A stretch of 64,000 nt of DNA, from positions 806,001-870,000 of the forward strand of contig NZ_OY970459.1 of the NCBI RefSeq assembly GCF_963853665.1. The letters run 5' to 3'. A program made the position numbers and the translations under genes. The notes beneath the pieces were generated by a model that worked only from the letters and a program-made list of their open reading frames with translations, was not told where the DNA came from and ran no database searches. Of the stretch, positions 37,750-62,060 are shown in pieces; the first letter of the stretch is position 1, and each line of letters begins with the position of its first letter. The stretch is from Mycobacterium decipiens (GTDB lineage: Bacteria > Actinomycetota > Actinomycetes > Mycobacteriales > Mycobacteriaceae).

Positions 37750-38061
37750 GTAACCCGCTTCTTGAGCCGCACTAACGAACAGGTAGAAAATAGTAGAAGA
37801 CACCATCAACCGTCGAGCGGGTTGCATCCGCCCGCAAAACCTGATGTCGAGGGGCGGGTTGGCGGGCGAACGATCTGCATGTCTCAATCCCATGCCTGAC
37901 GGCACCGAATCACTACTGGTGCTATTGCGGATCGTCTTCGTCGTCGTTGTTGCGGAGCAGCGTCTCGGGGGTGGAAGAACATGTTGGTGCGGGGCTGCCG
38001 GCAATCCAGATGGGCCGGCGGAATCCGTAAGTTCGCAGGTGCAGTACTTCGTGCTTACCGT
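37750..38061. other. No recognisable gene
   Basis: About 310 bp between the dioxygenase start and the 3' end of the MmpL gene, both on the minus strand. Nothing recognisable was found; a promoter for the dioxygenase would be expected here. Confidence 0.5.
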
Positions 38062-40305
38062 TCAAGGCATGCTTGCATATTCGTTGATTCCGATGCGTTT
38101 GTGGAGCCGCACCAAAGGCGCTGGCGCCCACCAATTCCATCCGCCCATGATGTACATGAACGCCGGAACCAGCACCATACGTACCACGGTCGCGTCGACC
38201 AGCACTGCTATCGTCAACCCGAGGCCAAACATCCGCATGAACGAGACTTCGGCCGTAGTCAGTGCGGCAAAGCTGATCGCCATGATCAATGCCGCGGCTG
38301 TGATCACACGACCGGTGTAGGCGATTCCGAGGGTGACGGATTCGTCGTTTATGGCACGCGGAGTCGTCGCCGACATGCCCCGCTTCAACTCACACCAGTA
38401 CTCGCGGATTCTCGCAAGCAGAAAGACCTCGTAATCCATGGACAACCCGAACGCGATGCAGAACAACAAGACGGCGAGATTGGCTACTAGCGTTCCGGTG
38501 GACGTCGTACCCAAGGCGCCGAGGTGTCCGTCTTGGAAGACCCAGACCAGCGCACCGAAAACGGCCGTCAGCGACATGAGATTGAGAATTATCGCCTTTA
38601 ATGGCAACACGATGCTGCCGGTGAGCAGAAACAATAACGCGAAGGTGACTACAGCGATGAAGCCCAGTACCGACGGCAATCGGGCCTGGATAGCGTCCAC
38701 ACTGTCGCGGTTGGTCTCGGCTAAGCCACCGAAGTCCACGCTGCGTGCCTGCGGTGGGGTAACTGCGTGCAGCGCATCGAGCTGGGCGTCTGAGACGTGG
38801 GAGTACAGCGGCGCCTTGCTGTTCACGGTGAGGAAGGCGCTACCGCCGGAAACGCCGGTCGGCGCTTCCGGCGGTCCGATGACTCTGCCGTCGCGATAGG
38901 TTCCCGACGGTGCTGACACGTCCAAGACATCGTCAACCCTCGACAGCGCGGCGGCGTACTGGCCAAGCTGCTCTGCCGTCAGGCCATGGGCGTCTGGGAT
39001 AACGACTTGAATCGACTTCGAGTTGTCGTCGGTGAAGTTGCTGCGCAACTCGTCGCCGACCTGGCGCGAGGACGCCGACGCTGGTAGCACGCGGTCATCC
39101 GGGTAACCCCATTGGACATGAAGGAAGGGCACCCCAGCGAGCAGCAATACCGCGACTACGGTCACTCCTATCGGCACGCGGTGACGCAAGACGAACTTGC
39201 TCGACCGGTACCAAACGAATTGCTCTACCGGACGTTGATCGCGCTCCGGACGCCGCAACAAACGCCGCAGCGATCGGCGAAAATCCAAGGCATTCAACCG
39301 GTCGCCAAGTAGAGTAATCGCCGCCGGAGCCGCGATGATTGCGCTCGCCGCCGCGAACCCCACCGTGGCGATTCCAGCGTAGGCGAACGACCTCAGGTAA
39401 TACATTGGAAATAGCGTCAAAGCCGCCATCGACAAGGCGACGGTAAATGCCGAGAACCCCACTGTGCGGCCGGCAGTCAATATGGTGCGAGCTATGGCGT
39501 CGTCGCCGGTAGAACCCGCGGCGAGTTCCTCGCGGTAGCGGCTGATGATCAGCAGGGTGTAGTCGATAGCCAACGCCAGGCCCATGGCCATGGTGAGGTT
39601 CAGCGCATAGATAGATACATCGGTGGCGTAGGTAATCAATCGAAGCACCGACAGTGAGCCGAGGATGGCCAACACACCGACACCAATTGGAACGACTGCA
39701 GCAATCAGCCCACCGAACGCCCAGACGAGGACGACAAAGCTGAGCGGGATAGCGATTAACTCCATGCGTAGCAGGTCAAGCTCGGTTCGATCGTTCACCT
39801 GGGCGTAAATCATCGCGCCACCGCCAGCGCGAACAACGAGCCCGTCCTGATCGGTGATCACGTCATCGGAAAGCTCCTTGGCGTATTTTGGGGCTGTGTT
39901 CTCCCCACCCGCAAGGTTGGCGACGATGAGACCGGTTTTGCCGTCTTTGCTTACCATTCCCGATGTCGCCGTTGCCGGCTGAGTCCACAGTGAGGCGACG
40001 CTGAGCACATACGATGATGCGCGCAGTTTTTCGACTATGCCGATTGCCACTGCGCGAGCCAACGGACTGGTGGCCCCCTGCGGGGCGGTTACTGTGACAA
40101 GCAGTTGCTGGTCACTTTGGTTGAACTTGTCGGTCAACAGTTGGCTGGCCCGCGTCGACTCTGAATTCGGGTCATCAAACCCGCCGGCGGACAGGTGGTC
40201 GATAACCGGTATGCCGAATACGGCGGCGCCGATCATCACCAGGGTAACCACCGCCAGGATGCGCCGGGGCGCTGTTGTTGCCAGAATCGCGATCCGGTGC
40301 AGCAT
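38062..40305 (-). CDS. MmpL-family (RND) lipid transporter
   Basis: The 747-residue protein has the MmpL layout: an N-terminal transmembrane helix, a periplasmic domain (GGFDDPNSESTRASQLLTDK), a block of about five helices, a second periplasmic domain and a final block of helices. The proton-relay Asp-Tyr pairs are visible in ALAIDYTLLIISRYREE and GLSMDYEVFLLARIREY. MmpL proteins export complex lipids and siderophores across the mycobacterial envelope. It is shorter than MmpL3-MmpL8 and closer in size and opening sequence to the MmpL11/13 type. Its place next to the PKS locus suggests it exports the product; this is inferred. A truncated relative lies at 53255. Confidence 0.88.
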   Translation of the reverse strand: MLHRIAILATTAPRRILAVVTLVMIGAAVFGIPVIDHLSAGGFDDPNSESTRASQLLTDKFNQSDQQLLVTVTAPQGATSPLARAVAIGIVEKLRASSYVLSVASLWTQPATATSGMVSKDGKTGLIVANLAGGENTAPKYAKELSDDVITDQDGLVVRAGGGAMIYAQVNDRTELDLLRMELIAIPLSFVVLVWAFGGLIAAVVPIGVGVLAILGSLSVLRLITYATDVSIYALNLTMAMGLALAIDYTLLIISRYREELAAGSTGDDAIARTILTAGRTVGFSAFTVALSMAALTLFPMYYLRSFAYAGIATVGFAAASAIIAAPAAITLLGDRLNALDFRRSLRRLLRRPERDQRPVEQFVWYRSSKFVLRHRVPIGVTVVAVLLLAGVPFLHVQWGYPDDRVLPASASSRQVGDELRSNFTDDNSKSIQVVIPDAHGLTAEQLGQYAAALSRVDDVLDVSAPSGTYRDGRVIGPPEAPTGVSGGSAFLTVNSKAPLYSHVSDAQLDALHAVTPPQARSVDFGGLAETNRDSVDAIQARLPSVLGFIAVVTFALLFLLTGSIVLPLKAIILNLMSLTAVFGALVWVFQDGHLGALGTTSTGTLVANLAVLLFCIAFGLSMDYEVFLLARIREYWCELKRGMSATTPRAINDESVTLGIAYTGRVITAAALIMAISFAALTTAEVSFMRMFGLGLTIAVLVDATVVRMVLVPAFMYIMGGWNWWAPAPLVRLHKRIGINEYASMP

Positions 40306-40603
40306 GATTGGTCTTCCCGTCAGATTCTGTGGACTAGTTGTTGTGCGGCGAGAATTTCGTTGGCAGATGGCGCGGTCAACGGTGAACTTCGAAGTTGAAA
40401 GTCACCCTTGCTGGTTGGCCGCGGCGCCGCAGGGCGTGCCGGCTTAACTCGCGGCGATAGTGCAGTTGGCGTTGGATTGGCGATTGCAGGCGAGGCGGTG
40501 TGGGGGTGCAGCGTGGTGGGTGGGGTCTTGGACCGGTGCTCCTCGCTTGCGCAAGAACAGACGCGCACCAACCGAGAGAATCTCGTTGACATGGCCGAGA
40601 AGA
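40306..40603. other. No recognisable gene
   Basis: About 300 bp between the MmpL start and the end of the monooxygenase pseudogene. On the opposite, intact side of the locus an alcohol dehydrogenase fills the matching place, but no dehydrogenase remnant could be recognised here. Confidence 0.45.
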
Positions 40604-41455
40604 CTACCTTCTTCTGAACTGCAGATCCTCTTCGGCGATTTTGCCACGCCGAATCAGCCAGAGGTCCCGAAAGTAGTTGTGGTATACCCGCCACGGGGCA
40701 CACGAGCCTTGCTTTGGCATCCAATCCAGCACGCGTAGAACATAACCCGGCGTGAAGTCCTCGATAATCGGCCGCTCGTCGACGTCGGTGCCCGGGCGCT
40801 CAGCTACGACCATTGCAAAGCCTTTGGCGTGCATGTACTTCAGCAGTCGGCAAACGAACTCTGATACCAAGTCGGCTTTCACTGTCCATGATGCATTGGT
40901 GTCGCCGAACGTGAAAGCCATGTTCGGCACACCCGAGAGCATCATGCCCTTGTATGCCATAGTTTGGAAAAGGTCAACGGGCTGGCCGTCGATACTTACC
41001 GACGTACCGCCCAGGAGTTGCAGGTTCAGTCCGGTAGCGGTAACGATGATATCTGCTGCCGGCTCACGCCCCGAGTCAAGCAAGATCCCTGTTGTGGTGA
41101 GCCGCTTGATTGTATCGGTGACTACCTCGGTCTTTCCCTGTCGGATCGTGCGGAACAGGTCACCGTTGGGCGCCAGACATCGCCGCTGGTTCCATGGGTC
41201 ATATTGCGGCTCAAAGTTTTTGTTCACGTCATAGCCCTGAGGAAGCTGACGGCGGGCCAGCTCAATAAGCCGTCTCCTCATACGTTGTGGCCACCGTCGG
41301 CAAGCGCAATAGACGGCTGCCTTCTGCACGATACTGCTTCCAGCGAACGGCAGCGTAGGCCTTGCCCGCAGGCAGCCAGCGATTTAGCTTGTCGGCGATG
41401 AAGTCTCGGTCGGGTTGATCCATTATGTATGTCGGTGAGCGCTGCAGCCACCAAG
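40604..41455 (-). pseudogene. Truncated, frameshifted EthA/MymA-type flavin monooxygenase
   Basis: The minus strand encodes the C-terminal half of a protein closely similar to the intact monooxygenase at 50556-52049. LQRSPTYIMDQPDRDFIADK and RWLPAGKAYAAVRWKQ come in one frame. After a shift near 41335, QKAAVYCACRRWPQRMRRRL, IIVTATGLNLQLLGG and VLDWMPKQGSCAPWRVYHNY follow to TAG 40604-40606. Everything upstream of LQRSPTYI, including the FAD-binding Rossmann motif, is missing; homology stops near 41455 next to IS5-like DNA. It is a dead paralogue that probably arose by duplication of the monooxygenase-transporter segment. Confidence 0.88.
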
Positions 41456-41599
41456 ACCCCTGAGATCAGCCAAAACGGACCTTTCTTGAAGAGCATGTTC
41501 TATGTGGTGATGTGGAGTTTCTTGAAGCAAGTGAGCGCAGCTGTGAGTTTGCAGGACGGCTGGGTAGATGCGGCCGTGGCGTATGTAATGGCCTTTCGG

Positions 41600-41885
41600 G
41601 CGATACGTGGGGTTTGGCATTGGCGATAACGTGCATCTTCGAACCTGCTTTGCCACGATCGACTAGGTTGGGGCCCGTCAGGGTGATCCCGCCTTTTGCT
41701 CGGACATTGGCCGCGTCGAGGATTGCCGCCGACCAGTTCAGGTCGCCGGCCCCCCGCGATGGTCGAGCATCTGCCGGTGAATCGCATCGAAGACTCCGGC
41801 GCCACCACCCTGAGGGCGCGCTCGAAGTCGGGGAATCAGCTCACTAATCAACTCGCACAACTCAGCTGACACCAAATGCGAATTC
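41600..41885 (-). pseudogene. IS5-family transposase fragment (frameshifted)
   Basis: The minus strand reads LVSAELCELISELIPRLRAR and VFDAIHRQMLDHRGGPAT. After a one-base shift it gives DLNWSAAILDAANVRAKGGI, TLTGPNLVDRGKAGSKMHVI and further sequence. The 'DxSxVRAxxGGxxTGPNPVDRGKxGSKxHV' block is typical of the first catalytic region of IS5-group transposases. The remaining DDE domain is absent. From 41886 to 42145 and from 41456 to 41600 nothing else is recognised. Confidence 0.72.
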
Positions 41886-42154
41886 GACTCATCTTTGCTC
41901 GTCCCACTATCAACACAAACCACATTGGCCACGTAAGACACGTTCCAAGTACGAACCGAAGCAAGACGTAGCCCCATCATGGAGTTGGCCGGCGCCGGCG
42001 CCGCCGGCCGGATGGTTGACTGACTTCGTGCGGCGATAAGGCTTGTGGCGCAACAATTTGCCATGGACACCTGAGTGGCCGCCCGGCTTACCAGCGACGA
42101 GGTCAATGACTCGACGATGTATGACCTATTGACCACGTGGGTCACAGTACCACT

Positions 42155-42191
42155 TTGTCAACTGACATTGATTGTCAATCACCGTTGACAA
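42155..42191. promoter_or_regulatory. Nested inverted repeats, candidate repressor operator upstream of the PKS
   Basis: TTGTCAAC (42155-42162) is matched by GTTGACAA (42184-42191). Inside lies TGACA-N5-TGTCA (42163-42177). Such nested palindromes fit a TetR- or MarR-type operator. No regulator gene is visible nearby, so the binding protein is unknown. Confidence 0.45.
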
Positions 42192-42721
42192 CGGTCGCTG
42201 TCTTAATCTACTCTGCCAACCAGGGCCGCTGCGGATTCCAAGCCACGCGACCCATTGCGCTCAGCTCATCGCGGCTGAGACCAGCGCTAGGGCCCGACTC
42301 ACTGGAGAGTCTTTCGGCATGCACGGTTCGTGAGTCCTCATTCTCATGGGTTACGCACAATGGGCCACAATGGACGCTCTTCAAATAGAACACATCGAGG
42401 AGGCAGTGCATCATTTCGACCGTTTAGCATGAGACTGGTGGGGTTCAGCCCGGAGGAGAATTGCTCTCTGCGGCCCGCCTCGCCTTCCCTTGACGTTAAC
42501 GCTTCACCGCGACTTCCGCGCGGCCTGACTTCCTTATATCAACGCAAATTGACGCTGATCATCAGGCCCGTCATCCCAAACTGACCCGCGATGGTTCAGC
42601 AGCCGGCGCAGGTAAGTTCGTTATGGCCGCATTCTCGGGTGGGGCGGCGAAAAGCGATGCAAGCACGCTTACCCCATTACCGATCATTTTGTCAATAATC
42701 TTTCAGCCTGAGGAGAGTGCA
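42192..42721 (+). promoter_or_regulatory. Long upstream region of the PKS operon with strong ribosome-binding site
   Basis: About 530 bp with no recognisable gene. An AGGAGAG at 42711-42717 lies 6 bp before ATG 42722 (counting from AGGAG) and fixes the PKS start; an in-frame ATG at 42623 lacks such a site. The region is less GC-rich than the surrounding genes and probably holds the operon promoter. Confidence 0.6.
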
Positions 42722-45700
42722 ATGAGCCGTATTGCGATTGTCGGAATCGGATGTCGGTATGCCGGCGGCATTGATTCACCGGATTCTTTCTGGGATTTCG
42801 TGGTGAACAAGAAAGACAATGCCATCGTTGACATCCCCGCCGATCGCTGGGACTACCGGCGATTCTACGACCCGGACAAGAGTGCTGCCGGACGGTCATA
42901 CACCAAACGAGGCGCTTTCCTGACCTGCGATCCCTGGAAGTTCGATCCGGAGTTCTTCGGGATATCGCCGCGCGAGGCAACCGTCATGGACCCGCAGCAG
43001 CGCTTGATCATGGAGGTCGCCTGGGAGGCGGCTGATGACGCCGGTGTGGCCGGCCGACTGGCTGGCAGCTCAGTGGGTGTCTATGTCGGTGCATTCAACG
43101 TCGATTTCTCGGTTACCACCATGGCCATCCCGGTAATCCCTCACTTCGACATGAACACTTCGACCGCCGCCTCCTTCACCATGTTGTCGAATCGGCTGTC
43201 TTTTGCGCTCAACTTGATGGGGCCTGCCCTGACGGTCGACACCGCGTGTTCGTCGTCGCTTGTTGCCTTCCACCTGGCTTGCCAAGCTGTCGCGAGCGGC
43301 GATTGCGAAATGGCTCTCGCCGGCGGCGTCAACGTGATGTTGCAGCCGGAAATGTTTGTGTCGATGTGCAAAGGCGGATTCCTGGCGGCCGACGGGCGCA
43401 GCAAGTCATTCTCCGCTATCGGTGACGGCTATGGCCGTGGCGAGGGTGCCGGCATGGTCCTACTGCGCAGACTCGAGGACGCTGTACGTGATGGCGACCG
43501 CATCTATGCGGTCGTCGCAGCGACCGGTTCCAATCAAGACGGGCGCACCAACGTGATGACCGTCCCGAACGGCGATGCGCAGGAGACGCTGGCCCGTTCG
43601 GTATGTGCCCGGTCTGGCTTCGCCCCGCACGAGGTGACCTATGTGGAGGCACATGGCACTGGAACGCCGGTCGGTGATCCGATTGAGCTGGGCGCGCTCG
43701 GACGCGCATACGGCTGTGTTGAAGGGCGTAGCAAGCCGCTTGCCGTCGGCTCACTGAAAGCTACGCTTGGCCACACAGAAGCGGCTTCCGGCATCGGCAG
43801 TGTGATCAAGGCCGCACTGGCCATTCACAACCGAACTCTGCCGCCGCAAGGCTGGTTCAGCGACCCCAATCCAGAGATTGCGTTCGACGAGCTGCAGTTG
43901 ACGATCCAGGTGGAACCGCAACCTATCGATTCAGCTGTCGAGCGGATGACCGTGGCTGTCAACGGCTTCGGATACGGTGGCACCAATGCACATGCGATCC
44001 TGACTGAGCCGATCGCAGAGTTGATGGCGCCGAAGCCTCGATCCTCAACTCGGCAGAACATCGGGATTTTTCCGCTGTCTGCGCGCGGCGAGGCGGCTAC
44101 GCGCGAGCTGGCGGGTGCCTATGCCGAGCTGCTCGATACAGGTACCGATCCGCACGACCTGATCGAGGCGGCGTGGAATCGGCGTGCGCACCACCGCAAT
44201 CGAGCGGCGGTGACCTTCGCTGATTCAGCAGATCTCGCCGAGCGCTTGCGGCTGGTCTCGACCGGCGATGGTCCGGTGAGCTCTGTGGTTGACAACTCCG
44301 CGGGCGTGGCCTTTGTATTCTCCGGAATGGGAACGCAGTGGTGGGCCATGGGCCGCGATCTGCTCAATGCGGGAGGTGTCTTTGCCGCTGAAGCGGCTCG
44401 CATCGACGAGTGCTACCAGAGCATCGCCGGCCGGTCCATTATCGAAGAATTGTTCCGTTCCCAGGACGACTCGAAGATCACGTCCACAGCGATTGCGCAA
44501 CCGGCAACCTTCCTTCTCCAGGTGGCACTGACGTGTGAGCTCGCCGAGCACGGAATCAAACCCAGTGCCTTGGTTGGACACAGCATGGGCGAGGTGCCCG
44601 CGGCCTACTTGGCCGGTGCGTTGTCGCTCCATGAAGCCCTGTTGGTGACCCACCATCGGGCGCGACTGCAGGCGACCACGGCGGGAACCGGCGGTATGCT
44701 CGCAGTCGGGTTGCCGTACAAGGAATTACGCGAGTTGGTTCCTGCTGATCTCCAGATTGATGTTGCCGCGATGAACAGCCCATCTGCGGTGACGGTTGCC
44801 GGCGAAGTGAGTCACCTAGAAGCGCTCGCTGAAATTCTCACTGAGCGGGGCATCTTCAATCGCCGTTTGCGTGTGGAGGTACCGTATCACAGCCACCGCA
44901 TGGATCCCATCCTCGATGAACTGCGGGCCGAGCTCGCCAATCTCGCGCCACAGCAGCCTCGAATCCCGCTGTACTCGACAGTCACAGGCGAATTGGCCAC
45001 TGGCCTCCTGGATGCCGACTACTGGTGTGCAAACGTACGTGAGCCGGTTCGTTTCGCCGATGCAATCAAGACGCTCGTGGGCGACGGCCATCGGGTCTTT
45101 CTGGAAGTCGGACCCCATCCGGCGTTGTCAGCGAATATCCGCGAGGTCTTACTGAAAGGCCACGAAATCGGGGTGTCGATCCCGACCCTGGATCGCACTC
45201 GGCCAGATGCTGACAGCCTCCGGCAGACACTTGCCGAACTCTACAACGCCGGTTCGCTTGACGCGACAGCTCTGTGCACAGAAATCAGTCCGTTCTTTAA
45301 GCTTCCCAGCTATCCCTGGCAGCGCCAGCGGCTTCACAAGGAGCTGGCCGTATTCGAGCAGATGAAGTTCGGCACGCCGGGCAACTACTCGATGCTGGGC
45401 GACCCCGACCTTGACCGTTCATCGGTGTGGGAGTTGCACGTCAGCGGGCAGACACTGCCGTGGCTTGCCGATCACGTCGTCAACGACGCGTGCCTACTGC
45501 CCGGCACGGCGTACCTGGATGCAGCATTGAGCGCGGCAGCTGTACGTGCCGGGACCGAATCGGCGATAGCTGATGACGTTCGCTTTGCCTCTCCGCTGTT
45601 CTTCGACCCGGCTGACGCCACCGTGTTGCGTACCGAAGTCGACGAGGCAACCCGCCGTTTCACCATCAAATCTCGTGCGGGCACCGGCACCATCTGGACC

Positions 45701-48700
45701 ACCCACGCAACCGGCCGGCTAGTCGATGGAAAGTGCGTAGCTACACAGCATTCCATCCCCGATGCCATCGGCATGGTCGAGATAGGTCCAGGCGAGTTGT
45801 ACGCCGCCATGTCGCGAAACGGGATGAACTACGGTCCCAACTTCCAGCGCGTCACATCACTGCGGGCGAACTCCACCCAGGCAGTCGGCACTTTGGATGC
45901 AAAATCGGATGAGGATACCGCAAAGCACCTCGTACACCCCGGCGTCATTGATGCTGCCTTCCACACTATCTCCCCTCTCATCGAGCAGTCCGTTGGTCGA
46001 ACGCTTGGGGCCATTGTCCCGATCGGAGTCGACAAGGTGCGTGTCTTCGGCCCGCTGCCCGACCATGTCGAGGTGGTCACCACCCAGCATCACACCGACC
46101 CGCTGCGCTTCGACATCGTGATACTTGACGCGGAACAGACTGCTTGCGTTCAGCTTTCGGGTGTCCAATTCGGTTCCATCACACCTCAGGAGCCAATGGA
46201 CCGTCTTGACCCACTCTTTCACGAAGAGGTGTGGGAGCTCTGTGACGAGCTGAACGTGGCAACACTGCCGTCCCAAGAGCAAACTGCGACAATGGTCTTG
46301 GCACTTGGCGATCCCAGCCCGCGGGTAAAGCAGCTGGCCGAGGCTCTACCGCACGCCGTCTATCACAACTGCACCGACACACTGGATTTCGAATCCGACC
46401 TCGTCGAAGGACTTCGGACGATGTCATCGGGTTTGCCGAGAGCGCACGTCTGTGTTGTTGCGGGAAGCTTCACTGACGACACCGATGCGTTGTGGACGCT
46501 CAAGCGAATCGCCATCGCCACTGAGCAGTTCTTTGAGGAGGAGAGGGGCGACCACGGTGAGGGAGAAGCTGAGGGACTGGAGGTGCTAGGTGACGAGACC
46601 TTCTCTGTCAGCCTGATCACCGAACAAGCCCTCACGCACCCCAACGATATTTGCGCACCGAATGTGAGCCACGCTGCTCTCGCCGGAGCACGACGCTCCC
46701 TGGTCGCTGAACAGCCGAGGTTGCGCTGGCGTCTGATAGACGTGGCACCCGATACGACGCTCGCTGAGCTTATGTCCGAGCTCGTTGTTCCAGGCGCCTT
46801 CTCTGAGGACAAGACCGACGAGATCATCTTGCGCGGCGGCCTACGGTGGTCTGTCGTCGTAGCACGGACCTTGCGGCAGCAGCTTGAAACGATGGCAGAA
46901 AAGCATGAATTGACAGACCCAGAGGCCAACTTCAGAATCGATGTCCCCAAATCGCGGATTCTGTCCGAAGTCAGTTGGCGACGCTGCCCGCGGCCAGAAC
47001 CGGGGATCGGCGAAGTCGAAGTGCAGATGCACATGGTCGGCTTGAACTACAAGGACTCCGTCAAGGTAGTCGGACTACTCGGCTCCAGGGATCTGGAAGG
47101 TACGCATTTCGGCACCGAGTTAGGGATGGAGGGCGTTGGAGTAGTTACCCGCGTCGGACCGCAAGCGGGTGACCTGCAAGTCGGTGACACGGTTGTCACC
47201 CTCACCAAAGGCATGCTCGTCCGTTATCAGATCGCTGATGCGACGCTGTGCGTCAAGTTGCCGATCTCCGCCGATAACCAGTCCCACTCGCTGTTCACCA
47301 GCAGCATGACCGCGTTCATCACCGCTGAGCACTCGCTGCTGGCGTTGGGCCGACTGCAGCCTGGTGAGACGGTGCTGATTCACGGCGCGGCCGGCGGTGT
47401 CGGTCAGGCGGCAATTCAGGTTGCGAAACTACACGGTGCGACGGTGATTGGTACGGCGAGCACCGATGAGCGGCGTGAGTTCGGACTTGCCTTGGGCGCC
47501 GACTACATGGTCGACTCGCGCACCCTCGATTTTGTCGACGATGTTCAGGAACTGACGAATGGCCGTGGCGTCGATGTGATCGTCAGCAGCGCGCCCGGGG
47601 AGATCCTTCGCCACAATTTCGATGCCATCAGCGAGGTCGGTCGGATAATCGAAGTCGGCAAAGCCGACATCTACGGCCACAGCGTCTTGGACATGGCGGT
47701 TTTCGACAAGAACATCACGTATTTCCAGATCGACATCGATCGTATGGTCGGCTGGGATGCGCCTCGCATCATGAACATGGTGGTCGAGATCTTCAACAAA
47801 CTGATCAGCGGGATTTACCAACCGCTTCCAGCAGAGGTGTTCGAACCAGCCGACGTTGGCCGGGCATTCGAAGAAGTGTTCCGCTCCAGCCGACCTAGCC
47901 GCGTCGCAATTCGCCTTGCCGAAAACACCGCACCGGTCAAGGCCGCGTGGCGCGAAGTCGTGATTGATCCGCAAGCTTCCTACCTGATCACTGGCGGGTT
48001 CGGAGGCTTCGGTCTGGCAACCGGTCGATGGCTGGTTAGGCGGGGCGCCCGGCACCTCACTCTGGTCGGCAGGAGCGGTGCGAGCACCGAGCTGGCACGT
48101 AGGCAGATTGCACAGTGGCGAACCGCAGGAATCGATGTCACCGAGGAGCTGGTCGATCTGACCGACACTTCCGCAGTGGCCGCCCTGATTGATCGTTGCA
48201 AGAACAGTGACCACGCGCTGCGCGGAATCTTCCACGCTGCGGGCACCATCGCCGACCAGCGCATCGCTGATATCGGCATGGCCGACCTCAAACGTGTATA
48301 CGAGGTCAAGGTCACCGGAGGGCGTGCTCTCTGGTCGGCCGTCAAGGCCGCGGGCATCACACTCGACCAGTTTGTGTTCTATTCCTCATCCAGTGCGATG
48401 CTGGGTCTGCTCGGACAGTACAGCTACGCTGCGGCCAACTTTGCCGTGCAGGCTCTTTCGGAATCGATTGCCCGTGAAGGACAGCCGACACTATGCATCG
48501 GCTGGGGACACATGTCAGGAACGGGCGGCGGTATGGCCACCGACAAAGATCTGGAGAAGTACATGATTCTTTGTGGTGTCGACGCAATCGACATGGACGA
48601 CGGCCCGATCTACCTGGAGGAAGCACTGCGGTTGGGCGTCACGCAAGCATCGATCATTTCGATTAATTGGTCGCAGATCGGCACGGTGTTGAGCCACTTC

Positions 48701-49054
48701 AAGCATCTGCTCCGCACTTCGACGATGATCTCTACGGCCAATGAGTCGCACTCCGCATTCGACCGATTGCGCGCCGACCTTAAGGCTCTCGATGAGGACG
48801 AGCGCAGCGTGGTAGTCGGTTTGATGCTCGCCGAGCAGCTCGCCACCGTGATGGGCGTGGCTACTGACTCTATCGATATCGACCTACCGGTGATGGAACT
48901 CGGGTTGAACTCACTTATGGCCGTGGAATTCAGCGCCCGTACCGGTGAGTCGCTCGGCGTGTCATTGAATACGCTGATGCTCGGACCCAGCTATAGCCTG
49001 CGCAAAGCCGGCGCAGAGTTGGCTGCAACGATTGTGTCCGGAGTCCGGTCATGA
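42722..49054 (+). CDS. Reducing type I polyketide synthase (KS-AT-DH-ER-KR-ACP), no thioesterase
   Basis: The 2110-residue protein is one complete module. KS (1-425): active Cys176 in DTACSSS, EAHGTGT and GHTEAASG histidines. AT (about 530-840): GHSMGE with Ser621. DH (about 890-1170): His918 in HVVNDACLLPG and Asp1077 in DAAFH. ER (about 1400-1715): HGAAGGVGQAA near 1554. KR (about 1750-1930): GGFGGFGLA near 1758 and Tyr in YSYAAANF. ACP (about 2030-2100): Ser2064 in GLNSLMA. This order is that of mycobacterial Mas/Pks2-type iterative synthases that make fully reduced (often methyl-branched) chains. AT specificity is not clear (PYHSH motif). No release domain is present; the next gene, an oxoamine synthase, overlaps by ATGA and probably releases the chain. 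The DH motif has Asp where Gly is usual. Confidence 0.93.
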   Translation: MSRIAIVGIGCRYAGGIDSPDSFWDFVVNKKDNAIVDIPADRWDYRRFYDPDKSAAGRSYTKRGAFLTCDPWKFDPEFFGISPREATVMDPQQRLIMEVAWEAADDAGVAGRLAGSSVGVYVGAFNVDFSVTTMAIPVIPHFDMNTSTAASFTMLSNRLSFALNLMGPALTVDTACSSSLVAFHLACQAVASGDCEMALAGGVNVMLQPEMFVSMCKGGFLAADGRSKSFSAIGDGYGRGEGAGMVLLRRLEDAVRDGDRIYAVVAATGSNQDGRTNVMTVPNGDAQETLARSVCARSGFAPHEVTYVEAHGTGTPVGDPIELGALGRAYGCVEGRSKPLAVGSLKATLGHTEAASGIGSVIKAALAIHNRTLPPQGWFSDPNPEIAFDELQLTIQVEPQPIDSAVERMTVAVNGFGYGGTNAHAILTEPIAELMAPKPRSSTRQNIGIFPLSARGEAATRELAGAYAELLDTGTDPHDLIEAAWNRRAHHRNRAAVTFADSADLAERLRLVSTGDGPVSSVVDNSAGVAFVFSGMGTQWWAMGRDLLNAGGVFAAEAARIDECYQSIAGRSIIEELFRSQDDSKITSTAIAQPATFLLQVALTCELAEHGIKPSALVGHSMGEVPAAYLAGALSLHEALLVTHHRARLQATTAGTGGMLAVGLPYKELRELVPADLQIDVAAMNSPSAVTVAGEVSHLEALAEILTERGIFNRRLRVEVPYHSHRMDPILDELRAELANLAPQQPRIPLYSTVTGELATGLLDADYWCANVREPVRFADAIKTLVGDGHRVFLEVGPHPALSANIREVLLKGHEIGVSIPTLDRTRPDADSLRQTLAELYNAGSLDATALCTEISPFFKLPSYPWQRQRLHKELAVFEQMKFGTPGNYSMLGDPDLDRSSVWELHVSGQTLPWLADHVVNDACLLPGTAYLDAALSAAAVRAGTESAIADDVRFASPLFFDPADATVLRTEVDEATRRFTIKSRAGTGTIWTTHATGRLVDGKCVATQHSIPDAIGMVEIGPGELYAAMSRNGMNYGPNFQRVTSLRANSTQAVGTLDAKSDEDTAKHLVHPGVIDAAFHTISPLIEQSVGRTLGAIVPIGVDKVRVFGPLPDHVEVVTTQHHTDPLRFDIVILDAEQTACVQLSGVQFGSITPQEPMDRLDPLFHEEVWELCDELNVATLPSQEQTATMVLALGDPSPRVKQLAEALPHAVYHNCTDTLDFESDLVEGLRTMSSGLPRAHVCVVAGSFTDDTDALWTLKRIAIATEQFFEEERGDHGEGEAEGLEVLGDETFSVSLITEQALTHPNDICAPNVSHAALAGARRSLVAEQPRLRWRLIDVAPDTTLAELMSELVVPGAFSEDKTDEIILRGGLRWSVVVARTLRQQLETMAEKHELTDPEANFRIDVPKSRILSEVSWRRCPRPEPGIGEVEVQMHMVGLNYKDSVKVVGLLGSRDLEGTHFGTELGMEGVGVVTRVGPQAGDLQVGDTVVTLTKGMLVRYQIADATLCVKLPISADNQSHSLFTSSMTAFITAEHSLLALGRLQPGETVLIHGAAGGVGQAAIQVAKLHGATVIGTASTDERREFGLALGADYMVDSRTLDFVDDVQELTNGRGVDVIVSSAPGEILRHNFDAISEVGRIIEVGKADIYGHSVLDMAVFDKNITYFQIDIDRMVGWDAPRIMNMVVEIFNKLISGIYQPLPAEVFEPADVGRAFEEVFRSSRPSRVAIRLAENTAPVKAAWREVVIDPQASYLITGGFGGFGLATGRWLVRRGARHLTLVGRSGASTELARRQIAQWRTAGIDVTEELVDLTDTSAVAALIDRCKNSDHALRGIFHAAGTIADQRIADIGMADLKRVYEVKVTGGRALWSAVKAAGITLDQFVFYSSSSAMLGLLGQYSYAAANFAVQALSESIAREGQPTLCIGWGHMSGTGGGMATDKDLEKYMILCGVDAIDMDDGPIYLEEALRLGVTQASIISINWSQIGTVLSHFKHLLRTSTMISTANESHSAFDRLRADLKALDEDERSVVVGLMLAEQLATVMGVATDSIDIDLPVMELGLNSLMAVEFSARTGESLGVSLNTLMLGPSYSLRKAGAELAATIVSGVRS

Positions 49055-50424
49055 CACGAGATCGAAGCAATGACGCCGCGCTGCGCGATATGGCCAGCAG
49101 GCTGCTCGCGCAGCGCGGCGCCAATCCAAGCCCTGCGCCAGCATCGACGACACCTCGACCCGCGCCCCGGACGGCCCCATCGCCAGGTCCACGCAAACGG
49201 TTCAGCGACCACCCCGGGGTGGTGGCCGTCTGCGAACTCAACGCGCAGAGGCGCGCGTTGTGGGAGCCGACCGGAATGCCGAACCCGCTGTTTCTGCCCA
49301 GGACGACCCCGAATACGGCCCTCATCAACAGCCCACAAGGGGAGCTGATCAACTTCTCCAGCTACAACTACCTTGGCCTGGCCCATCACCCGAGAGTCGT
49401 TCGTGCTGTTCAGGATGCGGTAGCACAGTATGGCGCCTCGGCATCGAACAGTCGCATCACCTCCGGAGAGACCGAACTGCATCCGCGACTCGAAAGTCGG
49501 CTGGCCCAGATGTATGACATGGATGCGGCCATCATCGCGACCAGCGGGTTCATCACCAACGCCGGAGTCATCGGCTTTCTCCTCAGCGAGGGTGACGCGC
49601 TCGTAGTTGACTCACTGATTCATGCCAGCGTGGTGACGGGGGCCCGGTGGGCAGGCGCTCGGATTATCACATTTCGACACAACGACCCCGAGTCGCTGCG
49701 CGGCGTGCTCCGAACGTCGCGTGACCGTTTCAAGCGGGTGCTCGTTGTCATCGAAGGCCTTTACAGCATGGACGGGGATATCGGCCGACTCCCGGAAATC
49801 TCGGCAGTTGCGCGTGAATACGACTGCGCCGTGATGGTTGATGAGGCCCATTCGGTCGGCATCTTCGGTTCCCACGGCTTCGGTGTGCGTGAGCACTTCG
49901 GTCTGCCTGGTGACGCGGCAGACATCTGGATGGGCAGTCTTTCGAAAGGGCTCGGCAGTTGCGGCGGCTTCGTTGCGGCCAGTGCCAACGTGATCGAAGC
50001 GCTTCATGTTGCTCCCGCAATGCTGCTCACCGTTGGTGTCCCACCGACCGCCGCGGCAGCCGCACTCACCGCCCTCGAGGTCATCGAGAGCGAGCCCGAG
50101 CGACTGAAACGTCTGTGGCGCAACACCGAATGGTTCAACTCGACGTTGCGTGAACGCAATATCGACCTCGGACTGTCGGAGAACACCCCGATATGTCCGG
50201 TGATGATCCCCGGCGTGAACAAAGTCGTATACGCCTCATCGCTACTCTTGCAACGCGGCATTTACGCCGGCCCCGTGTTGTCGCCAGGGGTTGCGCCTGG
50301 ACAGGAACGGCTCCGCTTCTTCATCACCAGCGAACACACCGAGGATCAACTGAAAGCCGCGGCTGATCAGTTGGTTGAGGTGGTTGAATTGGCCAAGAAT
50401 CTCGACGAGACAGTCTCAGTCTGA
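49051..50424 (+). CDS. PLP-dependent alpha-oxoamine synthase (KAPA synthase / serine palmitoyltransferase family)
   Basis: The 457-residue enzyme has the fold-type I core: NFSSYNYLGLAHHPRVV, the DEAHSVGIFGSHGFGVREHF stretch (Asp and His that hold PLP) and Lys299 in GSLSKGLGSCGGF for the internal aldimine. Family members join an acyl thioester to an amino acid with loss of CO2, giving an alpha-amino ketone. About 60 extra N-terminal residues precede the core: a short helix (DAALRDMASRLLAQRG) and a Pro/Ala/Ser-rich linker. This looks like a docking segment. Genuine BioF normally uses pimeloyl thioester and sits in bio operons; here the start overlaps the PKS stop, so the acyl donor is most likely the PKS ACP-bound chain. 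The amino acid (Gly, Ala or Ser) cannot be told. Confidence 0.9.
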   Translation: MTRDRSNDAALRDMASRLLAQRGANPSPAPASTTPRPAPRTAPSPGPRKRFSDHPGVVAVCELNAQRRALWEPTGMPNPLFLPRTTPNTALINSPQGELINFSSYNYLGLAHHPRVVRAVQDAVAQYGASASNSRITSGETELHPRLESRLAQMYDMDAAIIATSGFITNAGVIGFLLSEGDALVVDSLIHASVVTGARWAGARIITFRHNDPESLRGVLRTSRDRFKRVLVVIEGLYSMDGDIGRLPEISAVAREYDCAVMVDEAHSVGIFGSHGFGVREHFGLPGDAADIWMGSLSKGLGSCGGFVAASANVIEALHVAPAMLLTVGVPPTAAAAALTALEVIESEPERLKRLWRNTEWFNSTLRERNIDLGLSENTPICPVMIPGVNKVVYASSLLLQRGIYAGPVLSPGVAPGQERLRFFITSEHTEDQLKAAADQLVEVVELAKNLDETVSV

Positions 50425-50555
50425 GTGCGCTGTCCGACGTTGAGGTGCCGCATGCTCTGGCTCACAGCTCCGTTCAACACCGGTGAGATGCATGCACAAG
50501 CACATCCTGGCGACGACCGAAACGGTGATCGACCAGCACCCGGGAGTGTCAGATA

Positions 50556-52049
50556 ATGGAGCGCCTTGACGTCGTCATTGTCGGAGCGGGCATTTCAGGT
50601 GTCAGCGCGGCCTGGCACTTGCAACAGCGTTGTCCCGCCAAGACTTACGCCATTCTGGAGATGCGGGGTGACATAGGCGGCACGTGGGATCTTTTCCGCT
50701 ACCCGGGGGTACGCGCTGATACCGACATGTACACGCTTGGCTACCGTTTCCGGCCGTGGAAGGGACAAGCCATTGCCGAGGGCAGTGCCATACTCGACTA
50801 TGTCAAGCAAACAGCTGCAGTAGGCGACATCGACAAGCACATCCGCTTTAACCACAAGGTGATCAAGGCCGACTGGCGCAGTGCAGAGAACCGCTGGATT
50901 GTGCGCGCCCAATGCGCGAAGCCGGGAAGTAGGATCGCTTCCTCGGTCACGATCTCCTGCTCATTCCTTTTCATGTGTAGCGGTTACTACAACTACGACC
51001 AAGGCTACTCACCCTATTTCGCGGGTACCGAAGCCTTCAACGGGCCGATCATCCACCCGCAGCACTGGCCCAAGGACCTTGACTACGTCGGCAAGGACGT
51101 CGTCGTGATAGGGAGCGGCGCCACGGCGGTTACGATGGTTCCCGCGCTAGCGGACTCGGGCGCCAAGCACGTCACCATGCTGCAACGCTCGCCCACCTAC
51201 ATCAAGTCTGAACCCGCGCGAGACGCCATCGCCGAAAGGCTCATGCGTTGGCTGCCCGAGAACAACGCTTACGCAGCAGTTCGATGGAAGCGGATTTTGC
51301 AGCGGACGGCGTTGTACTGGGCCTGCCGGCAGTGGCCGCACCGCATGCGGACGCAGCTGATTCAGCTGTGCCGGCGCCAACTTCCCGCAGGGTATGACGT
51401 GATCAAAGACTTTGGACCGCACTACAATCCGTGGGACCAGCGACTGTGTGCGGCACCTAACGGGGACCTGTTCCGCGCCATCCGGCAGGGACAGACGGAG
51501 GTAGTCACCGACACCATAAAACGGTTCACCGCAACCGGGGTCCTGCTCGACTCGGGGCGTGAGCTGCCCGCGGAGATCATCGTGACCGCTACCGGATTGA
51601 ACCTTCAGCTTCTCGGTGGCAGCTCGGTCACGGTCGACGGTCAACCCGTGGAGTTGGCTCAGACGATGACCTACAAAGGCACGATGCTCACCGGGTTGCC
51701 CAACATGGCCTACGCGTTCGGTTACATCAATTCGTCGTGGACCTTGAAGGCCGACCTGACATCGGAATTCGTGTGCCGTCTGCTCGAATACATGGACGCC
51801 AATGGCTTTGAGAAAGTTGTGGCTGAGCATCCAGCCACCGACGTCGAAGAGCGCCCTTTCATCGAGGATTTCGTCCCAGGTTATGTGCTACGCGTACTAG
51901 GATGGATGCCCAAGCAAGGTTCGCGCAGTCCGTGGCGGATGCACCAGAACTACTTGCGTGATCTCCAGTTGATCCGCCACCGCAAGGTTGCCGACGAGAG
52001 CCTACGGTTCGAGAGGGCCCCGGAGCGGTCGGCCGCACAGCTGCGCTAA
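50556..52049 (+). CDS. EthA/MymA-type flavin-containing (Baeyer-Villiger class) monooxygenase
   Basis: The 497-residue protein opens with the FAD Rossmann motif VIVGAGISGVSAAWHL and GDIGGTWDLFRYPGVRADTD. From residue 155 it has FAGTEAFNG, then HPQHWP, close to the Baeyer-Villiger fingerprint FxGxxxHxxxW. The NADPH motif VVVIGSGATAVTM follows. It matches the mycobacterial EthA/MymA group, which oxidises ketones and sulfur or nitrogen groups. Acting on a keto or aminoketone lipid would turn it into an ester or hydroxylamine; this is inferred. A GGGAG lies before ATG 50556. The gene starts 131 bp after the oxoamine synthase. A decayed paralogue lies at 40604-41455 in opposite orientation. Confidence 0.9.
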   Translation: MERLDVVIVGAGISGVSAAWHLQQRCPAKTYAILEMRGDIGGTWDLFRYPGVRADTDMYTLGYRFRPWKGQAIAEGSAILDYVKQTAAVGDIDKHIRFNHKVIKADWRSAENRWIVRAQCAKPGSRIASSVTISCSFLFMCSGYYNYDQGYSPYFAGTEAFNGPIIHPQHWPKDLDYVGKDVVVIGSGATAVTMVPALADSGAKHVTMLQRSPTYIKSEPARDAIAERLMRWLPENNAYAAVRWKRILQRTALYWACRQWPHRMRTQLIQLCRRQLPAGYDVIKDFGPHYNPWDQRLCAAPNGDLFRAIRQGQTEVVTDTIKRFTATGVLLDSGRELPAEIIVTATGLNLQLLGGSSVTVDGQPVELAQTMTYKGTMLTGLPNMAYAFGYINSSWTLKADLTSEFVCRLLEYMDANGFEKVVAEHPATDVEERPFIEDFVPGYVLRVLGWMPKQGSRSPWRMHQNYLRDLQLIRHRKVADESLRFERAPERSAAQLR

Positions 52050-52157
52050 TCGATAGTTGGCTGCGCCATTAGCCTGTGGCGCTTCGCCGATATCCAGGCC
52101 CGGGACCGTGAAACTCAACCAAATACATTCTGCAACAGAGGAAGTGAGCACACTGAC

Positions 52158-53183
52158 ATGCGCGCTGTAGTCATCGAAGGGCCGCGCAGAGTCCGGGTCG
52201 AAACCCGCCCCGACCCAGCCCTTCCCGGGCCTGACGGGGCGGTCGTCGCCGTCACCGCGGCCGGCATCTGTGGATCAGACTTGCATTTCTACGGGGGTGA
52301 ATACCCGGTCGGCGAGCCATTGGCCGTCGGACACGAAGCGGTGGGCACTGTGGTGGAGGCTGGACCGCAAGTTCGCAGCCTCAAGGTGGGCGACCGGGTC
52401 ATGGTGTCTTCGGTAGTTGGCTGTGGCGTTTGCCCGGGCTGCGCGACCCGCGACCCCGTCCTGTGCCATGGCGGCCTGCGAATCTTCGGTGCTGGTGCAC
52501 TCGGCGGTGCGCAGGCCGACCTACTCGCGGTACCCGTCGCCGATTTTCAGGTGATGAAGATCCCCGAATCGATAAGCGACGAGCAGGCGCTGCTCCTCAC
52601 CGATAACCTCGTCACCGGCTGGGCAGCTGCCAAGCGAGCCGACATTCCGTTAGGTGGCACGGTCGCGGTGATCGGTCTGGGTGCGGTGGGATTGTGCGCG
52701 CTGCGCAGTGCGTTCGTACAGGGCGCCGCAACCGTTTTCGCTGTCGATCGGGTCGGCGGGCGGCTGGACCGCGCCGCCGGGTATGGTGCCACGCCGGTCA
52801 GATCGCCGGCCGCTGAGCGCATCATCGCCGCGACGGGCGGCCAAGGCGCCGATTCGGTGATTGACGCAGTCGGCAGCAGCGCATCGATGACCGACGCGCT
52901 CAATGCGGCACGGCCCGGCGGGACCGTGTCGGTGGTGGGCATGCACGATCTGCAGCCGTTCCCCCTTCCCGCCACCACCTGTGTGCTACGCAGCATCACA
53001 CTGCGAATGACCACCGCGCCGGTGCAGCGCACCTGGCCAGAATTGATTCCGCTACTTCAGTCAGGGCGGCTGGACATCGACGGCATCTTCACGACGACGC
53101 TGCCGTTGGACGAAGCGGCCAAGGGTTACGCGACAGCCCAGTCGCGATCGGGCGACAACGTGAAGATCTTGCTCAAGCCGTAG
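52158..53183 (+). CDS. Zinc-dependent medium-chain alcohol dehydrogenase
   Basis: The 341-residue enzyme has the catalytic zinc ligands in CGSDLHFYGGE and GHEAVG, the four-cysteine structural zinc loop CGVCPGCATRDPVLC, and the nucleotide-binding motif VIGLGAVGLCALRSA. It belongs to the threonine/sorbitol-dehydrogenase-like MDR group. In this locus it could reduce the ketone produced by the oxoamine synthase, giving an amino alcohol, or act before the monooxygenase; both are inferences. It follows the monooxygenase by 108 bp on the same strand and is the last intact gene of the cluster. Confidence 0.88.
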   Translation: MRAVVIEGPRRVRVETRPDPALPGPDGAVVAVTAAGICGSDLHFYGGEYPVGEPLAVGHEAVGTVVEAGPQVRSLKVGDRVMVSSVVGCGVCPGCATRDPVLCHGGLRIFGAGALGGAQADLLAVPVADFQVMKIPESISDEQALLLTDNLVTGWAAAKRADIPLGGTVAVIGLGAVGLCALRSAFVQGAATVFAVDRVGGRLDRAAGYGATPVRSPAAERIIAATGGQGADSVIDAVGSSASMTDALNAARPGGTVSVVGMHDLQPFPLPATTCVLRSITLRMTTAPVQRTWPELIPLLQSGRLDIDGIFTTTLPLDEAAKGYATAQSRSGDNVKILLKP

Positions 53184-53581: not shown

Positions 53582-55360
53582 TCAGCGCAGCGGTTCGACA
53601 TCCTCATTGAGATTCCCCTTTGCATAGTCGGTTAGGTCGTGTAACCGCCGGCTTAGCCCTGTCGCCCGAACGGCCCGACGCGTGATCGCCGCCCGCACCG
53701 AAACCTCAGATCCGACCACCCGCACTCCCTCTTTCGCCCGGGTGACCGCGGTGTAGAACAGCTCCCGCGTCAGCAGCCGCGAATCCGGTGGCGGCAGCAA
53801 CACGGTGACCTCGCCGACCTGACTGCCCTGGCTCTTGTGGATCGTCATCGCGTGCATCGTCTCGACCGCGGACAGCCGGCCGGTTGCGAAGTCAACCCGC
53901 CCGGTGGCAGAGGTGATGACGGCGCGCAGACCGTCGGGGCCGGCCACCGCGACACCGGTGTCGCCGTTGTAAACCCGTAACCCGTAGTCGTTTTCGGTGA
54001 CCAGCAGGGGTCGTCCGGCGTACCACTGCGACCAAGGCGGCTGGCCCGTTTCTTCGGCAAGCCAGTTCTGCACCCGGCGGTTCCACTGCCGCACACCGTG
54101 GGGCCCCTCCCGGTGGGCACACAGCAGCCGCTGCCGGCCCAGAGTCGCCAACGCTTCGTCGCCAGATCCCAACAACGCCGCCTCGCGCAGCCGCAACGTG
54201 TGCGGCATGATCAGCGCGCGCAGCCGCTCGGTCGGGTCGTCATCTTCGATGAACTCGATGTGTTCGTCACCCGATCGCAACAGCGCGATCACCCGATCCG
54301 GATCGCCGACCCGGATCGCACCGGCCAGCTGCGCGATCGCCTTTCCGAACCGGTGCGAGGTTCGTAGGGCCGCGACCCGAACGTCGGTGCGGGCCGAGAG
54401 GCCGTCCACCAGGTCCGCCAGCACCGCACCGGCTTCCACCGACGCAAGCTGGTCGGCATCACCGACCAGAATCAGCCGCGTGCCGGGACGCACCGCCTCC
54501 AGCAGCCGTGCCATCAATGTCAGCGACACCATCGACGTCTCGTCGACCACGATCACGTCGTGCGGCAACCGGTTGCCCCGGTCGTGCCGAAACCGCGTTG
54601 ACGTTTCCGGCTTAGCCCCGAGCAGCCGATGCAGCGTCATCGCCTGCGGCTGGCCCAGCCGCGTGCGATCGGCGGAATGAAGTTCGGCGACTTCATCCCG
54701 CACCGCCTCGGTCAGCCGTGCCGCCGCCTTACCGGTCGGCGCCGCCAGTGCGATGCGGGGCCGCGACCCACCGGCCAGCTCCGCCTGCTCGGCCAGCACC
54801 GCCAGCAGGCGTGCGATCGTCGTCGTCTTTCCGGTCCCAGGCCCACCGGTCAGGACCGTGACCCCCTGCGAGAGAGCAATTTCGGCCGCTTCCCGCTGTT
54901 CATCAAAGCCGCGTGGGAAAAGTCGGTCGTAGGCGGGTACTTCGACTACCGGTCCGGACGCCAGCAGGGCCAGCAAGTCGTCACACACCTGCTTTTCCTC
55001 GCGCCAGTACCGGTCGAGATAGAGCAGTCGATCGTCAAGATGCAGCACCGGCGGCGTGTCGCAGAGTGGGCTTGCGCGCACCGCTGCCAGCCACTGCTCG
55101 GGCTCCGGCCACCCCACGTCGTCGGAGACGTCGGCAACCCCGGCAACCTCGGCAACCGTAGCCAGATCCACACACACCGACCCGCCGCGAACCGCGCGCA
55201 CCGCCAGCGCCACCGCGAGCGCCACCCGCTCATCGGGCTCCTGGCCCAACGCGCAGAGCCGTTGCGCCACCTGCACATCCGAGACATCCAGCACCCCAGC
55301 CTCATTGAAGAGACGCAACAGGCCGCTGGCGGCGACGCAGACCTCGACCTCGGTGGGCAT
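53582..55360 (-). CDS. recD: RecD, exonuclease V alpha subunit (5'-3' helicase)
   Basis: The start ATG 55358-55360 (MPTEVEVCVAASGLLRLF) overlaps the recB stop and gives 592 residues; a longer frame into recB is rejected. Walker A is at 171-180 (TGGPGTGKTT), followed by VDETSMVSLTLMARLL (Walker B/motif II), LVGDADQLASVEAG and the C-terminal AMTIHKSQGSQ and FYTAVTRAKEGV of superfamily 1B helicases. RecD supplies the second motor of RecBCD. In mycobacteria RecBCD is reported to act mainly in single-strand annealing repair, while AdnAB handles recombination. It is the last gene of recC-recB-recD. Confidence 0.94.
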   Translation of the reverse strand: MPTEVEVCVAASGLLRLFNEAGVLDVSDVQVAQRLCALGQEPDERVALAVALAVRAVRGGSVCVDLATVAEVAGVADVSDDVGWPEPEQWLAAVRASPLCDTPPVLHLDDRLLYLDRYWREEKQVCDDLLALLASGPVVEVPAYDRLFPRGFDEQREAAEIALSQGVTVLTGGPGTGKTTTIARLLAVLAEQAELAGGSRPRIALAAPTGKAAARLTEAVRDEVAELHSADRTRLGQPQAMTLHRLLGAKPETSTRFRHDRGNRLPHDVIVVDETSMVSLTLMARLLEAVRPGTRLILVGDADQLASVEAGAVLADLVDGLSARTDVRVAALRTSHRFGKAIAQLAGAIRVGDPDRVIALLRSGDEHIEFIEDDDPTERLRALIMPHTLRLREAALLGSGDEALATLGRQRLLCAHREGPHGVRQWNRRVQNWLAEETGQPPWSQWYAGRPLLVTENDYGLRVYNGDTGVAVAGPDGLRAVITSATGRVDFATGRLSAVETMHAMTIHKSQGSQVGEVTVLLPPPDSRLLTRELFYTAVTRAKEGVRVVGSEVSVRAAITRRAVRATGLSRRLHDLTDYAKGNLNEDVEPLR

Positions 55361-61970: not shown

Positions 61971-62060
61971 CGGGCGCCACCATAGACCGTCTTGGCGTTC
62001 GAGGTCGCCGCGCAGTAGAACGACCGCGTGGGGCGACACGCTTTAATGCATGCTGGGGCC

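Follow-up and report, generated by a model that had tools for sequence, protein, structure and literature searches.

A polyketide synthase and oxoamine synthase locus of Mycobacterium decipiens, best read as a mycobacterial variant of a bacterial sphingolipid pathway

The 64,000-nucleotide stretch of Mycobacterium decipiens DNA analyzed here (the window; positions 806001-870000 of a single-contig genome of 5,303,299 bases) carries a type I reducing polyketide synthase (PKS) whose gene overlaps that of an alpha-oxoamine synthase (AOS), a pyridoxal phosphate (PLP)-dependent enzyme resembling serine palmitoyltransferase (SPT). The locus is real and conserved, and the interpretation that fits its sequence best is a new mycobacterial variant of the sphingolipid pathway built on a PKS and an AOS. 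Its closest characterized system is SgaAB of Pseudomonas fluorescens, likewise a PKS with an SPT-like AOS. We estimate a probability of about two in three that the locus is the mycobacterial branch of the SgaAB pathway, with an exported sphingoid-like lipid as the most likely product; the amino acid, the chain length, and the role of the cluster monooxygenase are presumptive.

The PKS-AOS pair and the proposed pathway

The PKS (42722..49054, plus strand) lies in a frame that is open from 42623 to 49054, and the start at 42722 chosen in a first-pass annotation of the sequence is reasonable because GAGGAGAGTGCA, a likely ribosome-binding site, precedes the ATG. That annotation described a single KS-AT-DH-ER-KR-ACP module without a thioesterase, and Pfam indeed returns all six domains (the ER as ADH_N/ADH_zinc_N) with no thioesterase or other release domain among its matches. 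Aligned with other PKSs (20 selected sequences in all), the protein keeps the KS cysteine and two histidines, the AT GHSxG motif, the DH histidine and aspartate, the ER and KR cofactor motifs, the KR Ser-Tyr-Asn set, and the ACP serine. The glycine position of the DH motif HxxxGxxxxP is occupied by Asp in the window and in the related locus L115 and by Gly in L004; since L115 shares the Asp and L004 has the Gly, the exchange need not disable the domain. The AT motif reads VPYHS in the window, VASH in all four aligned MAS-like PKSs of the same genome, and YAFH in all five aligned proteobacterial relatives. An aromatic residue before the histidine is a mark of AT domains that load malonyl units, and the motif thus points to malonyl extenders.

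The AOS (49051..50424, plus strand) starts within an ATGA that also holds the PKS stop at 49054, as first reported. Its closest solved chain is the Sphingobacterium SPT 3a2b, and in alignment it keeps the catalytic residues of SPT (H191, S239, D264, H267, S298, K299, and R422). Position 81 (S. multivorum SPT numbering) is Ser, as in 43 of 44 PKS-linked AOSs compared, and this Ser81 together with a YNY motif matches the Sphingomonas SPT chain. The likeness to the S. multivorum and Sphingomonas SPTs thus covers the fold, the PLP lysine, the aspartate, the histidines, and the carboxylate arginine; the window AOS differs from them in its overall identity (about 28-34% in structural alignments), in an extra N-terminal segment, and in the overlap of its gene with a PKS gene. 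The segment is modeled as a helix (residues 5-20) followed by a linker, with a mean confidence of 43 for residues 1-10 and 57 for residues 11-20, and a short helix-like segment followed by a low-complexity linker begins many stand-alone AOSs. A docking helix did not hold up: when 44 N-termini, proteobacterial and other, were made into a profile, it matched the mycobacterial ones unconvincingly, with 3-470 of 500 shuffles scoring equally well, depending on the row. We keep such a helix as a lead only, at low confidence.

Three further genes complete the cluster. Downstream on the plus strand, as had been noted at the outset, lie an EthA-like flavin monooxygenase of Baeyer-Villiger type (50556..52049) and a zinc-dependent medium-chain dehydrogenase/reductase (MDR) resembling threonine dehydrogenase (52158..53183), our candidate amino-ketone reductase; the MmpL-family transporter already remarked on nearby (38062..40305, minus strand), a candidate exporter, lies upstream of the PKS. 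Four relatives hold the same five genes together, at 70-79% protein identity to the window, and for this reason the grouping is more than chance. The relatives place the monooxygenase between MmpL and PKS and the dehydrogenase directly after the AOS, whereas in the window the intact monooxygenase stands between AOS and dehydrogenase.

The pathway that we propose begins with the PKS, which would build an acyl chain, probably by adding malonyl units iteratively. The AOS would take the chain from the ACP and, with loss of CO2, condense it with an amino acid, of which L-serine is the most likely, to release a 3-ketosphinganine-like 2-amino-3-ketone. These three steps rest on the SgaAB precedent and on conserved residues. 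The MDR dehydrogenase may then reduce the ketone to a sphinganine-like amino alcohol, in type A loci (defined below) the monooxygenase could insert oxygen at a ketone of the chain or of the product, and the MmpL protein, which is recurrently linked to the pair, would export the finished lipid. Family membership and gene context underlie this second half, of which oxygen insertion is the least secure step.

For P. fluorescens MYb115, a 2025 report describes sphinganines made by SgaA (PKS) and SgaB (AOS); purified SgaB condensed serine with long acyl-CoAs, hardly used alanine or glycine, and showed a virtually exclusive preference for serine, and SgaC, a short-chain dehydrogenase/reductase (SDR), is the proposed reductase (PMC12134224). 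The authors count 6,101 homologous putative SgaAB clusters, dominantly in Burkholderia; the word "Mycobacterium" does not occur in the main text, and the supplementary list of these homologues may include the genus (PMC12134224). With this system the window shares a monomodular PKS lacking a thioesterase followed by a stand-alone SPT-like AOS, and, with nearly all PKS-linked AOSs, the SPT catalytic residues and Ser81. Release of the chain as a 2-amino-3-ketone, as the first-pass annotation had proposed, is therefore supported by what SgaAB does, and residues, trees, and gene context agree. The differences are an MDR dehydrogenase within the cluster where SgaAB has the SDR SgaC, the added MmpL and EthA-like monooxygenase, and an Asn at AOS position 80. 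A methyltransferase-like region between DH and ER, present in both proteobacterial PKSs scanned, was not found in the window PKS. Identity to the proteobacterial pairs is about 37-44% for the AOS and 27-38% for pieces of the PKS, in a comparison that holds relatives other than the MYb115 proteins themselves.

Release of a PKS chain by an oxoamine synthase is also familiar from fungi, through FUM8 of the fumonisin pathway and SphA of the sphingofungin pathway. The fungal routes differ in being eukaryotic and in using another PKS and tailoring set, and the SphA chain 9pep is a distant match to the window AOS. PKS-derived fungal pathways to sphinganine analogues are described as similar to SgaAB in their reductases (PMC12134224).

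Distribution and phylogeny

The spread of the gene pair, a search suggested by the first-pass annotation, was followed through 396 genomes of the genus. Thirty had an AOS match at E<=1e-80 (33 matches), and 16 of these matches are stand-alone AOSs beside a PKS, in 15 genomes. The 16 loci fall into three types: A (n=5; the window, L004, L113, L114, and L115), B (n=4; L116-L119), and C (n=7; L120-L126, with the PKS of L124 and L126 cut by contig ends), with types B and C both present in genome G064. The other 17 matches have at most 44% identity; 15 lie in frames of at least 1392 residues (L127 being a KS-AT-AOS fusion by Pfam), one is an ACP-AOS protein of the window genome, and one at a contig end (L102) was left unclassed.

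Partner genes follow the types. MmpL, cluster monooxygenase, and dehydrogenase accompany all five type A pairs; MmpL and a gene like the S-adenosylmethionine-dependent methyltransferase of L116 accompany all four type B pairs. An MmpL gene stands in all 16 loci, in at least three groups by identity: type A with L124, L125, and L126 (53-59% between type A, L125, and the L124/L126 pair), type B with L120-L122 (43-45%), and L123. PF03176 matches number 43 in the window genome, with about two to each protein, and by a rough estimate a random 20-kb stretch would meet an MmpL gene about a tenth of the time; since all 16 loci across several lineages have one, the linkage is unlikely to be due to chance.

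Beyond the genus, 60 of 401 genomes sampled across the family matched at E<=1e-95, and an order-level sample of 200 genomes gave four matches, all in the same family. A protein search found 369 relatives among 7,999 candidates scored, and many of the 120 listed are named Nocardia. Gene context was compared in 16 loci from 16 genomes of Nocardia and kin (L192-L207), where MmpL matches are strong in L202-L204 and L206, weak (27-31%) in L195 and L198, and absent from the other ten. A GNAT-like gene lies near the pair in 14 of these 16 loci (L192-L204 and L206; not L205 or L207) and with five of the seven type C mycobacterial loci, which would fit an amine product. Ranking by similarity to the window AOS gave the best 80 of 195 relatives; of the 76 non-mycobacterial loci kept from these, 44 show a separate AOS frame with the end of a PKS match no more than 450 bases upstream. 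PKS and AOS adjoin in Mycobacterium, Nocardia, and many Proteobacteria. One such locus, L211, sits on a Pseudomonas plasmid typed as mobilizable (NZ_CP016850.1), with GNAT, SDR, and LTA-synthase genes nearby; PKS-AOS clusters can therefore sit on mobile DNA. The Paraburkholderia locus L212 has a GNAT gene directly after its AOS.

The AOS tree (85 rows, including the Pseudomonas plasmid relative but not MYb115 SgaB) unites the actinobacterial stand-alone AOSs in one clade (100/100), and a 100/100 branch splits actinobacterial and proteobacterial PKS-linked AOSs from a set of 33 rows, most of which (27) lie in frames of more than 600 residues. The PKS-linked L050, L059, and L060 fall inside this set and the unlinked L052 outside it. 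An earlier tree rooted on bioF, in which the PKS-linked but long-branched Cocleimonas L072 joined the mycobacterial clade (99), was replaced because of its very long outgroup branch; the purely actinobacterial clade depends on leaving out L072. The KS tree (53 rows, with ten PKSs of the window genome taken from the best-scoring of 87 matches) splits three ways, into an actinobacterial PKS-AOS clade (100/100) with a Verrucomicrobial row beside it (92/89), a clade of SgaA-like KSs (100/100), and a group of the ten own-genome PKSs with four others (97/95). That the pair was assembled separately, from a MAS-like PKS, is not supported, but given this three-way split, sisterhood of the window PKS with SgaA is allowed, not shown. 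In both trees types A and B are sisters and Nocardia comes next, the places of L123, L125, and L205 being different or weakly held, and we read PKS and AOS as having travelled largely as a pair.

Points against the sphingoid reading and alternatives to it

Several observations weigh against the sphingoid reading. The window AOS reaches no NCBIfam cut-off (its best scores are bioF, 326 of 426 bits, and SPT, 318 of 640); by residues it would work like an SPT, and by score it is not filed as one. In fold comparison the lead over ThAOS and KBL amounts to no more than about 3 Z; Sphingomonas SPT (48.1-48.2) scores no higher than KBL (48.7), one Burkholderia 8-amino-7-oxononanoate synthase (48.0) ties with it, and the S. 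wittichii SPT comes out below these at 46.6. A dehydrogenase and a monooxygenase of the window kind were found only with type A loci, and the locus is partly degraded, as described below. As to the GNAT-like gene, types A and B have none within the fetched stretches. Its name rests on the Pfam match of the L120 protein (1.4e-6), and the proteins of L125 and L197 have no Pfam match of their own. The actinobacterial GNAT-like proteins resemble each other at 32-42%, but no similarity to them could be detected in the GNATs that accompany the Pseudomonas and Paraburkholderia AOSs, so a GNAT shared with Proteobacteria was dropped; the window genome has one 32% match, far from the cluster. A further objection comes from the amino-acid pocket: position 80 is Asn in all five type A AOSs, the window included, Ala in all 122 other AOS relatives compared, and Gly in two reference SPTs, and the amino acid could therefore differ from serine.

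This last point is the core of the most serious competing explanation, in which offloading proceeds as proposed but with alanine, glycine, or another amino acid, giving a 1-deoxy-sphingoid or other amino-ketone lipid. The position of Thr241, where type A has Ser and type B has Cys, also speaks for it. So do two published precedents: residue 80 of S. multivorum SPT is reported to contact the serine hydroxyl by its main-chain amide, through a water (PMC10196870), and V79 of ThAOS, aligned with position 81, is reported as an important determinant of the amino-acid range (PMC11906848). Ser81 and the YNY motif of the window AOS, and the selectivity of SgaB for serine, argue in the other direction, and we consider a non-serine product unlikely, though by some way the best of the alternatives.

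It is improbable that the PKS is instead a MAS-like lipid synthase whose chain another enzyme releases, with the AOS, monooxygenase, and dehydrogenase acting on separate substrates. The best solved match of the PKS is mycobacterial MAS, nearly over the full length (880 bits) and in the same domain order, and MmpL proteins are partners of the mycobacterial MAS/Pks2 lipid synthases too. The window PKS nevertheless falls below the NCBIfam Pks2 equivalog cut-off (1043 of 2400 bits) and differs from MAS/Pks2 in its AT motif, which is unlike the four aligned MAS-like ones, in its KS clade, which is not nested among the own-genome PKSs used, and in its release partner, kept beside it from Mycobacterium and Nocardia to many Proteobacteria.

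Slightly less probable still is a decaying remnant that yields no product in this strain. A C-terminal fragment of a second cluster-type monooxygenase (40604..41329, minus strand) occupies the place of the intact copy of the relatives; it falls in the cluster clade, closest to the cluster copy of genome G057 (79% over 238 residues), and a further short piece lies at about 41331-41450. Nearby, a remnant at 41629..41810 (strand not assigned) has 73-75% identity to annotated IS5-family transposases on the six Rhodococcus plasmids listed (10 records matched). The G+C content of the cluster (37,001-52,100) is 59.8%, compared with 64.9% and 67.6% on its two sides; together, low G+C and the IS5-like remnant suggest that the region was acquired or rearranged. 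All five cluster genes nonetheless have open reading frames, the monooxygenase in its intact copy, and the catalytic residues of PKS and AOS are kept. Least credible is a biotin enzyme (8-amino-7-oxononanoate synthase) placed beside the PKS by accident, an alternative named in the first-pass annotation: bioF is the highest NCBIfam score of the AOS, albeit below cut-off, but a second bioF-like protein (395 bits, also under 426) adjoins a cut-off-passing bioA elsewhere in the genome, and the overlapping PKS and AOS genes are found side by side in relatives as well.

If the sphingoid reading holds, these lipids would be the first sphingolipids from mycobacteria. According to a review of PLP enzymes of M. 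tuberculosis from January 2026, sphingolipids have never been described in mycobacteria, and its authors on this ground question the role there of an SPT-like enzyme (PMC12910592); among the open-access literature matches listed we found no report of a mycobacterial PKS-AOS lipid. The PKS-AOS-MmpL locus, in 15 of 396 genus genomes and in Nocardia relatives, offers a concrete gene set for the question of mycobacterial sphingolipids and their export, and carries the SgaAB idea to mycolic-acid bacteria. More tentatively, and at somewhat less than even odds, some mycobacteria and nocardiae may make PKS-built exported sphingoid lipids, with the altered pocket and Baeyer-Villiger step of type A leading to an amino-lipid of a novel kind; to our knowledge, such a lipid is known from no organism.

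Tailoring genes, flanks, and related loci

Each of the five type A genomes has a second EthA-like copy, and the tree sets these copies apart from the cluster monooxygenases, which group as one clade (SH-aLRT 100). In the four type A relatives the dehydrogenase, immediately downstream of the AOS, has 78-79% identity to that of the window, and two of the five type A loci carry an NAD-dependent epimerase-like gene next to it (L113:12723-13883 and L114:5676-6677). The window MmpL scores best against MmpL3 in NCBIfam, far below cut-off (381 of 1400 bits); its counterparts at the matching place in the four type A relatives are 77-79% identical, although three are truncated where the fetched stretch ends.

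Genes of mce type flank the cluster on one side and recC/recB/recD on the other, the recD-, recB-, and recC-type genes lying directly downstream at 53582-62039 on the minus strand. Neither the Rfam scan nor the tRNA scan gave a match in the window.

Variation at AOS position 81 was seen in type C, where L124 and L126 have Thr in place of Ser. Thr at this position recalls the glycine-using ALAS, and these two loci may for this reason use another amino acid. In L205 and L207 the residue is Val. The second AOS of the window genome (G000:C1:493170-494369, in L129:9659-11557; minus strand) is a protein of 632 residues with an ACP domain fused in front, and its relatives in the genus mostly occupy frames of about 1400-1700 residues, one of them shown as the KS-AT-AOS fusion mentioned above.

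Among the loci of Nocardia and kin, a PAP2_3-family gene, possibly for a head-group enzyme, adjoins the AOS in three Nocardia loci (L192, L194, and L197). L205 has a different partner set, with UnbV/ASPIC and DUF1702 proteins after the pair (L205:11528-15581), and in L201 (1669-9633) an unusually long PKS frame of 2654 residues precedes the AOS, and the GNAT-like match also falls within this stretch.

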